Shown here piece after piece: positions 664-57,468 of a stretch of DNA of 64,000 nucleotides. A model generated the notes under the pieces. It was not told where the DNA came from, searched no databases, and was given only the letters and a program-made list of their open reading frames with translations. Location: contig NZ_BSNI01000002.1 in NCBI RefSeq assembly GCF_030159895.1, positions 932,039 to 996,038 on the forward strand. The letters are read 5' to 3'. The position numbers and the translations under genes are program-made. The first letter of the stretch is position 1. The number at the start of each line of letters is the position of its first letter. Source of the DNA: Maritalea porphyrae. GTDB lineage: Bacteria > Pseudomonadota > Alphaproteobacteria > Rhizobiales > Devosiaceae.

Positions 664-1134
664 ATGACCGACAAAAAAGACATCTACGCCAATCTCACTC
701 AATTGGGTGGCGAAACCAAATTGCCAAATAGTCCTGAGGAAGCGGTGCTAGAAAAGGTGCCAAATCCGCAAGTGGGCGTACATTATTGCGTGCGGTTCAC
801 TGCACCTGAATTTACCTCTCTTTGCCCTATGACAGGGCAACCAGATTTTGCCCATTTGGTGATTGACTACGTTCCGAGCGATTGGCTAGTCGAAAGCAAG
901 TCCTTAAAACTCTTCCTCGGCGCATTCCGCAATCATGGCGCATTTCACGAAGATTGTACGGTTTCAATTGGCCGTCGCCTCGTTGAGTTGCTCGATCCAC
1001 TATGGTTGCGCATTGGCGGTTACTGGTACCCACGTGGTGGCATCCCAATTGATGTGTTCTGGCAAACGGGCGACGCGCCGAAATCGGTATGGATACCAAG
1101 CCAAGACGTGCCAACCTATCGCGGCCGCGGCTAG
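664..1134 (+). CDS. queF: NADPH-dependent 7-cyano-7-deazaguanine reductase QueF
   Basis: Reduces preQ0 to preQ1, the nitrile reductase step of queuosine synthesis. The 156-residue product is the short, single-domain QueF type. The catalytic Cys54 lies in [11 protein letters not shown] with the conserved Asp61, and the QueF family motif [20 protein letters not shown] follows. The start ATG at 664 is preceded by AGAAGAGAA and gives the normal family length; an upstream in-frame extension from 553 overlaps queE and has no support. The stop codon shares the palindrome CTAG with the stop of the convergent mannosidase gene. Confidence 0.96.
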
Positions 1135-3587
1135 CCTTTTAAATAATGCAAAGACTTGGCGGTGTTAAATGTATCGCCGCCACGTTTGCGAGCGATGTAG
1201 ATCGTCTTTTCCCTGTTCGGCAATAGAGTGAAACAATTGTCTGAATAAATGTCCGCGCCACCATGGTCAAAAGTAACAAACAGTGCTGGTGTGTCTGAAA
1301 CCAAGGTAACTTGTGCGCCACCATCTTCTGCAATCGATTGCCTCACTTCAATAGCGGGCGTTTCAAATGCGTACGCTTTGGGCCGTTGCGGCAGATAGTC
1401 ATTTTCGCCCATTTTGCGCCCCGCTTTGTCCGCCCAGGTGAAGTGCAAAAATGCATTCGTGGGCACATCGGACGCCTTCATGCGGTATACTGATTGCGCG
1501 CTGTTTGGTACACATTCAACGTCCAAGACTTTGTGAGTATTTACTTCACCTGAAATGCTTACCAATTCAATATTCAGCGAGAGTGTGCTCGCGCCTTCTA
1601 GGTCGGAAACAGCATAAAAAACAATGTCCCCGTTTTCCTCATCGGGCTGTGCCGTAATCAAGATAGGCGCAAAGAAGCGCTTTGCTGCATAGTGTGTCAG
1701 TTTCCAATTGCCGCCATATTCAAGGCTCGACCAGCTCGCCACTGGCCATGTGTCATTCAATTGCCAATATAGCGTGCCCATACATCTGGGCGCCTGCGCG
1801 CGCCAAAACTCAATTGACGTTTTCATCGCAAGGGACTGACTGACTTGGCTGAGATAGACCATGTTTTCAAAACCATCAGGGAACCGGAAGTAGCGCGAGA
1901 TCGTTTCAACAATACGGCTATTGCCACCTTCATTTCGCTGATGCACGTCCATCACTTTCGACGATACATTGCGATCTTCAGGCTCAGTAAAGCCTTCGAT
2001 CACCTTCATCGATGGGAATGACTGAAAGCCAAATTCAGAGCAGAAGCGGGGTTTCACCGTGCGATAGTGCTCGAAGTCTTTTGACGAGTGCCACACATCC
2101 CAAAAGTGCATGTCGCCCGACCTGTCATCATGCCAGCCATCGCTGAAGTTTAGTGGTCCAACAGAAGGTGAGGATGGCCAGAAAGGAATGTCGGGTTCAA
2201 GTTCATCAACGGCCTCTTCCAGACTATGGTTGAGACGATCATAAATCGCCAAATAGCGGTCTCGATCGGCCTTGCCTTCATCGTACCAATTTAGCGCGCC
2301 AACCAGCTCATTGTCACCGCACCAAAGGGCCATGCAGGCCTGACCAGAAAGGCGCTTTATTTGATAGCGTGCCTCTTCGCGTACCGATTTCAGCCACGTT
2401 TTGTCGTGGGCTGGGTATAGATTGCAGGCAAACATGAAATCATGCCAGACGAAGATGCCCATTTCCGAGCACATGTCATAAAACCAATCCGGCTCATACT
2501 GGCCGCCGCCCCAAACTCGGATCATGTTCATGTTGGCGTCAACTGCCGATTGGAGGCGATCGCGGATTGTCTCTGGTGAGCAATTTTGTGGCAATGCATC
2601 GGCCGGGATCCAATTGGCCCCGCGCATAAACATTTCTTCGCCATTGATGCAAAACGCAAATCGGTTGCCAATTTCGTCAGCGCTTGTGTCTAACTTGATG
2701 TCGCGAAAACCGATTTTTCGCGTGCGCACTACATCGCCCAATCGCACTTCAAGCCTGTGCAAGATTTGCTCGCCTCTACCAACGGGCCACCAAAGGACAG
2801 GGTTGTCGATCTCTATTGAAATTGAATGTCTGTTTTCGCCGGGATAGTAGTTGATCAAAGCACTGGTATCGACGCCGCAAATGCTTGCTTCAAGTTCAAT
2901 TTCGCCTACGCCATGTGCTGCAAAATGGACGTCAAGTTCAAGCGTTACGTTACCATTTTCATGGTGTTTCTGACGCACCATAAACTCGTCAAATTGCACA
3001 GGGTCCGCAACGCTGAGAAAAATATCGTCGTAAAAACCGAGTGGGGAGAGGGCGATATTCCAGTCCCAGCCAGCGTGGCACTGGGTCTTGCGCAGGAAGT
3101 TGTAGTGCGGCAAGCGATTATTGAAAGACAGATAGGGCGTTGGAATAGTGGAACGCGCTGCTGCATCGGCAGCAGCTTCACTGTTTGAGTGGAACGTCAC
3201 ACGCAAGGCGTTTTTGCCCAGCTTCAGCGCAGCGCTGGTATCGAAATCCCAGCGCTTGAATTGACTATTGCACTGACCAATTTCCACGTCGTTCAAATGT
3301 ACGGTGGCAACGCAATCAACAGACATGAAAGTCAGAATATGGCGTTTGCAGATATCGCCTTCAAATTCAAAGTCGGTCGACGCCGTCCATTCTTGCTCAT
3401 GAATCCAATCAAGTGACTGCTCCGTATCGCGCCAATAAGGATTTGGGGTTTGTTCAGAAGCAAGTAGTGCCGAATGCACGTCACCAGGCACCCTAAGATC
3501 CGCACATTTTGATTTGTCGGCACTTTCAATTGTCCAGCCATCATTTAGGTGAAGTAGAAATGGTGATGTAATCGATTGCATGGACAT
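1131..3587 (-). CDS. Beta-mannosidase, glycoside hydrolase family 2
   Basis: Exo-acting hydrolase releasing mannose from the non-reducing end of beta-mannosides. The product has about 818 residues, normal for GH2 beta-mannosidases. The N-terminal sugar-binding domain ([10 protein letters not shown]) is followed by the RVWGGGQYE segment and [13 protein letters not shown], both characteristic of GH2 mannosidases. The acid/base Glu is in WCGDNE and the nucleophile Glu in [11 protein letters not shown]. No signal peptide is seen, so it is probably cytoplasmic. I chose the ATG at 3587 (MSMQS) over the upstream codon at 3695, because the 36 extra residues look non-coding. It is divergent from a peptide-type solute-binding protein, which could deliver substrate; that link is inferred. 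Confidence 0.9.
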
Positions 3588-17061: not shown

Positions 17062-17128
17062 GAATTCGGGTTGATCACATTCAAAGTTGATTGACAAGCT
17101 ATAGCGCTGATTTTAGGTTCGACAACAC

Positions 17129-17333
17129 TTCAGGTGTCCATTCGGCGACAAAGCCAAATTGAATGGATGAAACGGGAAGCTGGTCCGGTCGACCCAATTA
17201 GGGGACCAAATCCAGCACTGCCCCCGCAACGGTAGATGAGTGTTAGGTGCGATCAAATAGCCACTGCGTTTTCGTGGGAAGGCGATCAAACCCGGGCATG
17301 TTGCCCAACTCATAAGTCCGGAGACCGGCCTGA
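17129..17333 (+). ncRNA. Cobalamin riboswitch upstream of cbiM
   Basis: Leader RNA matching the AdoCbl riboswitch. In order: GGGAAGCTGGT, the core CTGCCCCCGCAAC (17218-17230), GCCACTG, GTGGGAAGGCG, and the B12 box variant AAGTCCGGAGACCGGCC (17314-17330). It lies between the divergent FAD oxidase and cbiM. Two perfect hairpins follow before the ribosome-binding site, GACATTTC/GAAATGTC (17349-17369) and TCGCAC/GTGCGA (17423-17441), which probably form part of the expression platform. Cobalamin binding should lower expression of the cobalt transporter. The 404-base gap 17062-17465 is accounted for by this element, its platform and the promoter. Confidence 0.92.
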
Positions 17334-17348
17334 TGTGAAAAGGAACCG

Positions 17349-18917: not shown

Positions 18918-18949
18918 CCTTGCCCGCACTTTAATGTCACATCATCCAA

Positions 18950-19147
18950 CGTGGTTCTTGTTGGCGTAGTTCGTCAACGAGATGAAAAGGGAACATGGTG
19001 CGGCGTACGCAAAAGCGACCAAAACCATGGCTGCCCCCGCAACTGTGAGCGATGAGACGGCTCTTTGATTTGCCACTGACCCTACATTGGGGTCGGGAAG
19101 GCGAAGAACCGTTGTCCGAATCGCAAGCCAGGAGACCTGCCACACCA
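18950..19147 (+). ncRNA. Cobalamin riboswitch upstream of cobW
   Basis: Canonical AdoCbl riboswitch leader. It has AAAAGGGAACATGGTGCG, CTGCCCCCGCAACTGTGAGC (19031-19050), TTGCCACTG, GTCGGGAAGGCG and the exact B12 box AGCCAGGAGACCTGCC (19126-19141). It ends about 65 bases before the cobW start and should repress the cobW-cobN-cobO operon when cobalamin is abundant. Confidence 0.95.
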
Positions 19148-19212
19148 AAGGCGCGTTTTTTCGCGCAAGCACATACCATTTAACCCGTCGGGCGGACGGA
19201 GAAGGACTAGAA

Positions 19213-55079: not shown

Positions 55080-55856
55080 TCAGTTTAGGGCCACTTGCTG
55101 GCTTTGCCGCATGTCGCAGTCAAAGACAATTTGGTTGCGCCCAGCAGATTTTGCAATTGTAAGGCTTTCATCCGCGGCTTGCACAAACTCGCGCAGAGAT
55201 TGCCCAGGCTCGTGGGTTGAAACACCAATAGAAACGCTCATTCGGTGCCCATTGTCGCCGTCTTCGAAACGGATTTGACGCACGCCTCTGCAAATCTTTT
55301 CCGCGACCTTGAGCGCGCTTTGATAGTGTGTTGTGTTCAAGAACACGCCGAATTCCTCGCCGCCAATTCGTCCCGCGACGTCGCCCTCACCAAGGTTTTG
55401 TTCTATAACATCCGATATGTGACGGATCGCGTCATCTCCAGCAGAATGGCCAAATGTGTCGTTAAGTGTTTTGAAGTGGTCAGCATCAATAACCAGGAAA
55501 GAGCCAACGCCGCGATGGGTAGGGTTATTTTCAACGTTTTCGCGAACCTCACCTAGGAATTTGCGACGGTTGGGCAAGCCAGACAAAGGGTCGTGATTAG
55601 CAAGCCAAGACAATTTGACCGATAAGTGTCGCAACTTGGCTTTTTGCAATGAAATGTAGAAGCCGATTGGAAGCGCCACCAATGCGGTGATCGAGGCGGT
55701 GGTAAGAAATTCAAACACGAGCCGTTCAGCGCCAAATCCACTATAGATAAAGTACACGGCAATTTCCGCCATGATAAGCGCTGCAGCCGTTATGCCAATG
55801 GCGCCCTTGCCACTTTCGATCAAGATTGGGATTTGCTTCCTATTCATCTTCGCCAC
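55080..55856 (-). CDS. Membrane-bound diguanylate cyclase (GGDEF), copy 2
   Basis: Paralogue of the preceding cyclase, 258 residues, with two N-terminal transmembrane segments and no recognisable sensor. The active site is GRIGGEEFGVF and the GTP-binding segment VIDADHFKTLNDTFGHSAGD. The I-site position reads GEGD, so RxxD is also missing here. A 144-base gap separates the two genes, so each may have its own promoter. Confidence 0.92.
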   Translation of the reverse strand: MAKMNRKQIPILIESGKGAIGITAAALIMAEIAVYFIYSGFGAERLVFEFLTTASITALVALPIGFYISLQKAKLRHLSVKLSWLANHDPLSGLPNRRKFLGEVRENVENNPTHRGVGSFLVIDADHFKTLNDTFGHSAGDDAIRHISDVIEQNLGEGDVAGRIGGEEFGVFLNTTHYQSALKVAEKICRGVRQIRFEDGDNGHRMSVSIGVSTHEPGQSLREFVQAADESLTIAKSAGRNQIVFDCDMRQSQQVALN

Positions 55857-56024
55857 CCCTTTGTCGATGAACTTGTGACGTCAGAATAACTGGCCCGCGT
55901 TAAATGCAGTTGGATCGAAACACTAAAAGCTGAACTAATCCATTTAGACCTTGTTCAATCATTGACCCATGGTTGGCGAAGCCGTAAAACAGCTCTCGCA
56001 GCGTTCCTTTAGGAACTGAAAGCG

Positions 56025-56070
56025 ATTCCGGTGCGGTCGACCCAATTAGGGGGCCAAGTCCTGAGCTGCT
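56025..56070 (+). ncRNA. Truncated cobalamin-riboswitch fragment in the cob operon leader
   Basis: The 19-base segment CGGTCGACCCAATTAGGGG (56034-56052) is identical to 17186-17204 inside the cbiM riboswitch, and the flanks align too (GGT before; CCAA-TCC-AGC-TGC after). The conserved CCCCCGCAAC core, GCCACTG and the B12 box are missing. It looks like a 5' remnant of a riboswitch and is unlikely to bind cobalamin by itself. Confidence 0.6.
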
Positions 56071-56091
56071 CGACGTTTGAAATAAATGAAC

Positions 56092-56123
56092 TCTGCCTCT
56101 TTTCATATAAATCCAGAGGTAGA
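56092..56123 (+). promoter_or_regulatory. Hairpin sequestering the ribosome-binding site of the cob operon
   Basis: TCTGCCTCT (56092-56100) pairs with AGAGGTAGA (56115-56123) over nine pairs including one G-T, around a 14-base loop. The 3' arm contains the GAGG ribosome-binding site of the DUF6732 gene, three bases from its ATG. This could limit translation of the first gene and, by coupling, the operon. Confidence 0.6.
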
Positions 56124-56125
56124 AA

Positions 56126-56320
56126 ATGACTAAAATTATCCTTTCAGCTATCGCCACCCTTGCCACTGCAGGCACAGCTTTTGCACATTCCGGCCATACA
56201 GAAGTGGTTGACGGGCACGCCCACACCTTAGCTGAGTTGGCTTTGATGAGCGCCGCGCCTGTAGCGTTGGGACTTGCCGTTATTGCGCTCGTGTTGTTTG
56301 CACGCGGCCGCAAATCGTGA
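56126..56320 (+). CDS. DUF6732-like small membrane protein, first gene of the cob operon
   Basis: Product of 64 residues: a signal-like hydrophobic N-terminus (MTKIILSAIATLATAGTAFA), a His-containing linker (HSGHTEVVDGHAH) and one transmembrane helix ending FARGRKS. The His/Asp-rich linker would face the periplasm and could bind cobalt or another metal. Small proteins of this kind occur with cob genes in alphaproteobacteria, but no function is known to me. Its stop overlaps the cbiX start by four bases. Confidence 0.75.
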   Translation: MTKIILSAIATLATAGTAFAHSGHTEVVDGHAHTLAELALMSAAPVALGLAVIALVLFARGRKS

Positions 56321-57468
56321 AGCGTAAACTCAACTTGCCGGCCGACACAGCAGTGATGCTGTGCGGCCATGGAAGCCGCAACAAATTGGCGGTAGGCGAA
56401 TTTGCACACCTGAAGGATCGGCTGAAAGAACATGCAGGCGATGTGCCGGTTGAATATGGCTATTTAGAATTTGCCGATCCGGTTATCCATCATGGTTTGA
56501 ACCAGCTCAAAGAGCAGGGCATCAAAAAAGTGCTTGCGGTGCCGGGCATGCTGTTTGCCGCCGGTCATGCAAAGAATGACATTCCATCAGTGCTCAACGG
56601 CTATCAGGCACAAAACCCTGAGATGGAAGTCATTTATGGCCGTGAGCTTGGTGTGGACTTAAAGATGATCCGTGCAGCTGGCGACCGCATTGAAGAAGCG
56701 TTGGCTAGCGCTGGTGGCGACGTGCCGCGCGAAGAAACGCTTTTGGTGGTCGTTGGACGCGGTGCTTCTGACCCAGATGCAAACTCCAACGTTGCCAAAG
56801 TTATGCGTATGCTTTGGGAAGGCATGGGCTTTGGATGGGGGGAAGTTGCCTATTCTGGCGTAACGTTTCCGCTAACAGCACCAGCCCTTCGCCATGCGAC
56901 AAAGCTTGGTTACAAGCGGATCGTTGTTTTCCCATATTTCTTGTTCACCGGCGTTTTGGTGAAGCGGATTTATAGTTATACCGACGAAGTTGCTGCCGAA
57001 CACCCTGACATTGAGTTTATTAAAGCCGGCTACCTCAACGATCATGATTTGGTCGTTGATACCTTTATGGACCGCATTGAAGAAACGCTGAACGGCGAAA
57101 ACGTGATGAATTGCCAAATGTGCAAATATCGCGAGCAGGTACTGGGTTTTGAAGCGGAAGTTGGGCTGGCGCAGGAAAGCCACCATCACCATGTTGAAGG
57201 CATTGGCGGTGGCATGGAAGACTGTCCGTGCAACGGAGATTGCGACGCCTCCTGTCGTGATGAAGAGTTTTGCAAGAAACATGGGCTTGAATGGACGCCT
57301 GTCCACTCCCACGACCATGCTCACGATCACAGCCATGATCATTCGCACGTCCATCATCACCATGATGATCACAATCATGCGCATGATCACCATCACCACC
57401 CTTATCCGTTTGCGGACCATCCATTGGGGCCAAAAACAATGGAAAAACAGGCTAAAGGTAAGGGGTAG
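56317..57468 (+). CDS. cbiX: Sirohydrochlorin cobaltochelatase CbiX, long form with Fe-S motif and His-rich tail
   Basis: Class II chelatase that inserts Co2+ into sirohydrochlorin for early-cobalt B12 synthesis. The 383-residue protein has two homologous halves: LCGHGSRNKLAVGEF with PGMLFAAGHAKNDIP, and LVVVGRGASDPDANSN with FPYFLFTGVLVKR. After these come MNCQMC, matching the MxCxxC iron-sulfur motif of long CbiX proteins, a Cys-rich patch (DCPCNGDCDASC), and a His/Asp-rich tail (about residues 330-370) likely to bind metal. Start is GTG 56317, overlapping the previous gene by four bases. Confidence 0.94.
   Translation: MKRKLNLPADTAVMLCGHGSRNKLAVGEFAHLKDRLKEHAGDVPVEYGYLEFADPVIHHGLNQLKEQGIKKVLAVPGMLFAAGHAKNDIPSVLNGYQAQNPEMEVIYGRELGVDLKMIRAAGDRIEEALASAGGDVPREETLLVVVGRGASDPDANSNVAKVMRMLWEGMGFGWGEVAYSGVTFPLTAPALRHATKLGYKRIVVFPYFLFTGVLVKRIYSYTDEVAAEHPDIEFIKAGYLNDHDLVVDTFMDRIEETLNGENVMNCQMCKYREQVLGFEAEVGLAQESHHHHVEGIGGGMEDCPCNGDCDASCRDEEFCKKHGLEWTPVHSHDHAHDHSHDHSHVHHHHDDHNHAHDHHHHPYPFADHPLGPKTMEKQAKGKG

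Follow-up and report, generated by a model that had tools for sequence, protein, structure and literature searches.

The window analysed here, a stretch of 64,000 nucleotides of Maritalea porphyrae DNA, raises the question of how its cob operon is controlled, since the operon that includes cbiX has, unlike the cbiM and cobW transcripts, no recognisable riboswitch. A preliminary description made from the sequence alone had pointed to a 19-base segment of the operon's leader that is identical to part of the cbiM riboswitch and, further downstream, to a hairpin over the ribosome-binding site of the first gene, and had proposed either that a full riboswitch had decayed and been replaced by a simpler switch or that the leader is a minimal, non-canonical sensor of a corrinoid or cobalt. 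By comparing this leader with those of related genomes, we show that the 19-base match is just the end of an arm within a structured element of 80 bases (55994-56073; Table 1), which accounts for the lack of a recognisable riboswitch in this operon. We read the leader as a conserved, compact cis-regulatory RNA, a putative translational switch for B12 synthesis (probability about 0.6).

Table 1. Features of the window, with coordinates counted from its first nucleotide
Feature	Position	Strand	Sequence, pairing or basis
Canonical cobalamin riboswitch before cbiM	17115-17347	+	Full RF00174 match, 99.9 bits; holds the other copy of the 19-base match
Canonical cobalamin riboswitch before cobW	18935-19158	+	Full RF00174 match, 118.6 bits
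cob operon leader			Between the diguanylate-cyclase gene (55083-55856, minus strand) and the first cob operon gene (ATG 56126)
Whole cbiX motif	55994-56073	+	Match to model R1, 86.2 bits, E 1.6e-20 (the source alignment of R1 includes this very sequence)
P1, 5' strand	55998-56002	+	GCAGC, pairs with 56065-56069; covariation and structure-free scan
P2, 5' strand	56003-56007	+	GUUCC, pairs with 56012-56016; covariation and structure-free scan
P2, 3' strand	56012-56016	+	GGAAC, pairs with 56003-56007
Joiner	56017-56026	+	UGAAAGCGAU, begins UGAAA; conserved alignment columns and side-by-side reading
Long arm	56027-56064	+	Holds the 19-base match; R1 match, covariation and structure-free scan
Long arm, lower helix	56027-56031 with 56060-56064		In the window, 56029 and 56062 form a C-U mismatch
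Long arm, upper helix	56035-56038 with 56052-56055
Long arm, cap	56041-56043 with 56049-56051		CCC/GGG
P1, 3' strand	56065-56069	+	GCUGC, pairs with 55998-56002
Strand of the candidate alternative helix	56088-56096	+	GAAC-U-CUGC; potential partner of GCAG-C-GUUC at 55998-56006 through eight pairs, with a single mismatch
SD-masking hairpin	56092-56123	+	56092-56100 with 56115-56123; minimum-energy fold
First gene	56126-56320	+	His-rich small protein, 64 amino acids
cbiX, second operon gene	56317-57468	+	Followed by cbiC/cobH and further cob genes

The leader has no canonical riboswitch

The observations from which the preliminary description started hold up. Positions 56034-56052 are identical on direct reading to 17186-17204 of the cbiM riboswitch, the nine-pair hairpin over the ribosome-binding site appears in the minimum-energy fold, and the two other B12 transcripts keep complete riboswitches. 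A BLAST search with the leader (55857-56322) against the whole genome of the organism returned only the query itself and the cbiM leader stretch (40 bases, 85%, E 1.7e-5), which makes a chance match unlikely; given also the conservation of the element in other genomes of the family, we rejected coincidence as the source of the match.

The Infernal check proposed in the preliminary description, with the Cobalamin and AdoCbl-variant models, gave no match to either model in the leader up to an E value of 10. With lax filters and the same limit, cmscan listed no member of the cobalamin clan (CL00101, to which the cobalamin riboswitch RF00174 belongs) for 55850-56140, and its only two matches fell far under the thresholds of their families. 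No Rfam 15 family matched the leader at threshold, RF00174 gave no match there and its gathering score was not reached, and the NiCo/czcD riboswitch (RF02683), described in PMC7689651, was not matched up to E 10 and shows no visible kinship with the leader. Cobalt sensing would be a possible shared trait of the two. The AdoCbl variant RF01689, given as marine in Table 1 of PMC2864571, is likewise a divergent relative of cobalamin riboswitches, and its model too found nothing in the leader at E values up to 10. With no cobalamin riboswitch in the Rfam scans of the leader and the patterns of the B12 box and L5 at chance level, a hidden full riboswitch was rejected, and the earlier statement that the riboswitch core and the B12 box are missing is thus borne out. 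In the literature covered, which took in few subscription papers and few bioRxiv preprints, we found no description of the motif.

Comparison reveals a motif with covarying helices

Folding of the single sequence gave no excess stability (z -0.97 for 55930-56135 and +0.22 for 55985-56080), so that the element is invisible to this approach and emerges only by comparison. The alignment with leaders of relatives that the preliminary description had called for showed that the element is kept across the family and is not a lone match: BLAST matched the leader in 92 of 136 family genomes, mostly within about 55997-56069, and the DNA identity of this stretch to the other family genomes was ∼72 to 91%. 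For the family alignment we used 89 motifs, that is, the 92 matched genomes minus three that were not fetched (G013, G017, and G020), leaving out a second match in G114 that is its cbiM riboswitch; the model R1 was built from this alignment. The motif consists of a five-pair P1 (GCAGC/GCUGC), a five-pair P2 (GUUCC/GGAAC), a joiner that begins with UGAAA, and a long arm composed of two helices, with UGC/AAG and GA between them, and a CCC/GGG cap. It is a small structure with strongly conserved loops, and blocks such as GGTGCGGTCGACC are nearly invariant in the family alignment.

Covariation within the family set (81 distinct rows) supports this structure, with 95.7% of cells pairing, 52 double-change cells compared to 13.3 ± 2.9 in shuffled alignments, and a covariation score of 0.155 compared to 0.110, reached by none of 500 shuffles, while two of the five covariation measures were marginal (reached by 35 and 33 of the 500). 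Structures slid along the alignment paired only 24 to 57%. RNAalifold alone predicted 10 pairs, every one of them in the long arm rather than in P1 or P2, and P1 has no double changes in the family set. These are present in the order set of 74 sequences (71 order-search loci, including one that belongs to the family, and three family loci), where 94.2% of cells pair and P1, P2, and the two helices of the arm all show double changes. The covariation score of this set is 0.470 compared to 0.248 ± 0.009 in 50 shuffles, although these loci lean towards the model structure because the model was used to find them. A mutual-information scan of 146 distinct motifs, which was given no structure and from which six odd and eight canonical loci were left out, recovered P1, P2, and the two helices of the arm, pairs of which rank with the strongest signals; some of the top pairs are not base pairs, as expected from shared ancestry. 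The identity within the family and the compensatory changes in four helices indicate that the motif is under selection as it stands.

Relationship to cobalamin riboswitches

R1 also matches the canonical riboswitches of the window (42.7 bits, E 8.5e-9, and 27.3 bits, E 1.2e-4), which suggests that the long arm and the joiner of the motif are probably homologous to the 5' half of cobalamin riboswitches. Motif and RF00174 share their location before B12 genes, the order of P2-type hairpin, UGAAA joiner, and P4-type arm, and the pattern of that arm, GGUGCG..CGACCCAA..GGGG..CCAA..CC, followed by GCUGC; the P4-type arm with GGUGC/AA.UCC of the cobalamin riboswitch is thus present in the motif, and the UGAAA part of the joiner resembles the stretch that precedes this arm in the riboswitch. 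When the two are compared side by side, the part of the motif that runs from UGAAA to the final GCUGC, where the motif ends, is the counterpart of the riboswitch stretch from UGAAAAGGGAAC through GGUGCG, CGACCCAA, GGGG, and CCAA to GGCUGCCCCCGC. Whatever lies beyond the P4-type arm in RF00174 (L5, P6 onward, and the B12 box) is absent, including L5 CCCCCGC and GCCACTG, and the motif has ∼80 nucleotides compared to ∼190 model positions. Its GCUGC, unlike that of RF00174, pairs with an upstream GCAGC.

Conserved features of cobalamin riboswitches, according to PMC11260477, are a ligand-binding four-way (P3-P6) junction, the B12 box, and a kissing loop, which is formed by L5. In none of the 160 motif loci did the best B12 box candidate have fewer than four mismatches, and shuffled sequence gave the same result, compared to zero to two in 8 of 8 canonical loci. 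For L5 CCCCCGC, the best candidate again had at least four mismatches in every one of the 160, which is chance level, and zero or one in the eight canonical loci, although a portion of this L5 sequence had served to select those eight. The P3-P6 junction is not found in the motif, whose conserved structure is P1 plus two hairpins; all helices recovered without a preset structure lie within these. Since the defining features were looked for and are absent, we do not place the motif in the cobalamin riboswitch family: it is riboswitch-like and kin to the cobalamin riboswitch but lies outside that family. The simplest history would be that the 5' half of a cobalamin riboswitch closed on itself through GCAGC/GCUGC, the direction of change being presumed.

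Distribution and gene context

At E ≤ 1e-9, R1 finds the motif in 101 of the 136 family genomes. The order sample gave matches in 161 of 397 genomes at E ≤ 0.01, canonical riboswitches included, and the class sample in 20 of 385 at E ≤ 0.001, the genome of the window and canonical riboswitches included. Forty of 79 loci from the order search were scanned with Rfam, of which 5 were separate canonical riboswitches and 35 had no match at all; the core sequence marked three further loci as canonical. In the class search, 20 loci were scanned, and 14 proved canonical whereas 6 did not (L197, L198, L199, L201, L202, and L203, with L201 doubtful by eye). Most class-level loci being canonical, the motif belongs chiefly to this order, and because canonical cobalamin riboswitches occur in 133 of the 136 family genomes, it works beside them. 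Two plasmid searches had no match, and the CbiX relatives that a third one found were all remote and covered less than 80% of the query; a scan of viral contigs with a pattern found none.

The motif has a narrow set of target genes, taken here as the longest open reading frame starting at most 500 nucleotides from it. For 69 order-search loci together with the window, the target was CbiX in 62 of 70, CbiC in 4, and CbiG_C in 1; in 72 of 88 other family loci it was CbiX in 25, CbiG_C (CobE-like) in 25, and CbiC in 3, other targets being unassigned because the longest frame may skip a short first gene. Seen from the gene, 71 of 84 CbiX homologues (E ≤ 1e-50, 249 order genomes) have an R1 match 50 to 770 nucleotides upstream on the same strand. 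Among the other 13, four have a divergent upstream copy (26.8 to 29.6 bits), and scans of the region turned up no canonical riboswitch for any of the 13. Divergent copies (L241 1095-1177, L246 2973-3051, L178, and L179) have the GGUGC part of the arm altered and CGACCCA..GGGG kept, and help to separate essential from accessory letters. At L157, L158, L162, and L188, the motif precedes cbiC/cobH and not cbiX, and the respective genomes (G178, G217, G326, and G138) encode a diverged CbiX (48 to 50% identity) elsewhere, with no motif upstream.

Within the family, cbiC is found in 112 of 136 genomes, and the motif in 96 of these 112 and in 5 of the 24 others (unlisted genomes being assigned by elimination). 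The motif is missing from 16 genomes that have cbiC, namely the whole of genus g15 (13 genomes) together with G049, G069, and G095. Searches for CbiX in eight g15 genomes and G049 found none, with a query that matched 84 genomes in the order, and four 20-kb regions around cbiC (L223, L224, and L225 in g15; L226 in G049) held neither the motif nor any Rfam match. The protein of the first gene of the operon is only weakly similar to DUF6732 (19.9 bits, under the 27-bit cutoff), occurs in just 14 of 136 family genomes, and had one doubtful match in the genome_contigs collection. By eye, a His-rich small protein of membrane type often stands between motif and cbiX (in the window and at L124, L150, L153, L156, and L174); such a protein may take part in cobalt handling.

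Expression platform

The SD sequence of the first gene (AGAGG, 56115-56119), six bases before the ATG, lies inside the masking hairpin. Across 73 family leaders, the mean SD pairing probability was 0.93 compared to 0.62 with shuffled linkers, and 69 of the 73 exceeded their own shuffled mean; in 39 leaders from outside the family, the values were 0.76 and 0.67, with 27 above their own shuffled mean. Masking of the SD as predicted by these folds is thus well supported in the home family and weakly supported outside it. Just 5' of the anti-SD, GAAC is conserved: of 73 family leaders, 59 have GAAC(N)0-1CUGCC exactly, 10 have it with one mismatch and 3 with two, and it is absent in 1. Its complement GCAG-N-GUUC makes up the 5' strands of P1 and P2, so that the motif and this alternative helix would be mutually exclusive. 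Tests of the helix were mixed. When leaders were shuffled singly, 17 of the 86 from the family and 7 of the 48 others gave p ≤ 0.05, and pairing of each strand with its own linker gave a p value of 0.035 for 37 distinct strands and of 0.17 for the 31 of these from outside the family. The alternative helix is thus plausible in the home family and at most tentative elsewhere.

Platforms vary between families. The SD follows P1 immediately in L083, L084, L096, and L101 (GGAGG), in L057, L074, and L097 (CGAGG), and in L060, L062, L063, and L076 (AGAGG), an arrangement that could couple P1 directly to translation; in folds that start at the motif, and hence exclude upstream partners, the SD is unpaired in L060, L062, L063, and L076 and mostly so in L083 and L084. 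At L159, L160, L138, L139, and L150, a second hairpin followed by a T-rich run was seen by eye just 3' of the motif, and some families may therefore use transcription termination instead of SD masking.

Discussion

A conserved structure in the leaders of functionally related genes, a general criterion for riboswitches, is found here, and together with the platform of the home family it suggests how the motif could act. When the motif is folded, presumably with its ligand, P1 and P2 would hold GCAG-C-GUUC, the linker would pair with the SD, and translation would be off. When the motif is unfolded, GCAG-C-GUUC could pair with GAAC-U-CUGC of the linker, and this alternative helix would weaken the SD hairpin and turn translation on. 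We take the folded state to be the off state on account of the masking hairpin and the logic of feedback. The signal, through which B12 synthesis would be subject to feedback, might be a corrinoid, a pathway intermediate, or cobalt; its nature is less certain than the switch. Kinship with cobalamin riboswitches, absence of their core and B12 box, and the SD-masking platform speak for the minimal non-canonical sensor of the preliminary description, with that lesser certainty attached to its proposed signal. Since the motif lacks the pocket known from cobalamin riboswitches, either its ligand or its mode of binding should differ from those of the canonical riboswitch. More specifically, the motif may be a new riboswitch class that arose by domain loss, when an ancestral cobalamin riboswitch shed its known binding half and closed on itself with a new P1, and that in one bacterial order controls the entry into B12 synthesis and senses either another ligand (e.g., sirohydrochlorin, a cobalt-corrin intermediate, or Co2+) or cobalamin by another mode of binding; this proposal is tentative, and we put its chances somewhat short of even.

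Not every conserved leader structure senses a small molecule. The missing cobalamin pocket and the small structure with its strongly conserved loops would also suit a site at which a protein or a small RNA binds and so governs how well the cob message is translated or how stable it is, but the likeness to a ligand-binding RNA and the place before B12 genes fit direct sensing of a related molecule, and we consider such a site unlikely, though a serious candidate. It is harder still to see the motif as a constitutive structure that does not switch and determines how stable the operon's mRNA is or at what basal level it is translated: variable platforms and an alternative helix that is not significant outside the home family would fit this, yet unpaired letters are conserved over many families before a narrow set of targets, which suggests that something is recognised, and we regard the idea as quite improbable.

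The decay of a full cobalamin riboswitch, as envisaged in the preliminary description, would account for likeness to the 5' half of the canonical form and the absence of the remainder. It is contradicted by the 72 to 91% identity and by compensatory changes in all four helices, and by the persistence of the motif, which 101 of 136 family genomes carry and which precedes 71 of the 84 CbiX homologues sampled in the order; on these grounds we rejected it as very improbable. Much the same holds for a signal at the DNA level, such as a transcription factor site, which the near invariance of blocks like GGTGCGGTCGACC might suggest: the pairs change in compensatory fashion and include G-U, length varies in the loops only, and the strand is fixed relative to the gene, all of which speaks against it, and the compensatory changes and the structure-free covariation led us to reject it as highly implausible.

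A much shorter relative of the cobalamin riboswitch that keeps just the non-pocket half amounts to a natural experiment on the ways in which a large aptamer can shrink and perhaps change its ligand, and with its ∼80 nucleotides and clear set of target genes the motif is suited to direct binding tests. Two of the other loci deserve mention for their canonical riboswitches. L210 has two cobalamin riboswitches on opposite strands (1479-1702, plus strand, and 1039-1238, minus strand), ∼240 bases apart, and in L212 a cobalamin riboswitch (1489-1715) is followed ∼430 bases downstream on the same strand by a manganese riboswitch (2148-2307).
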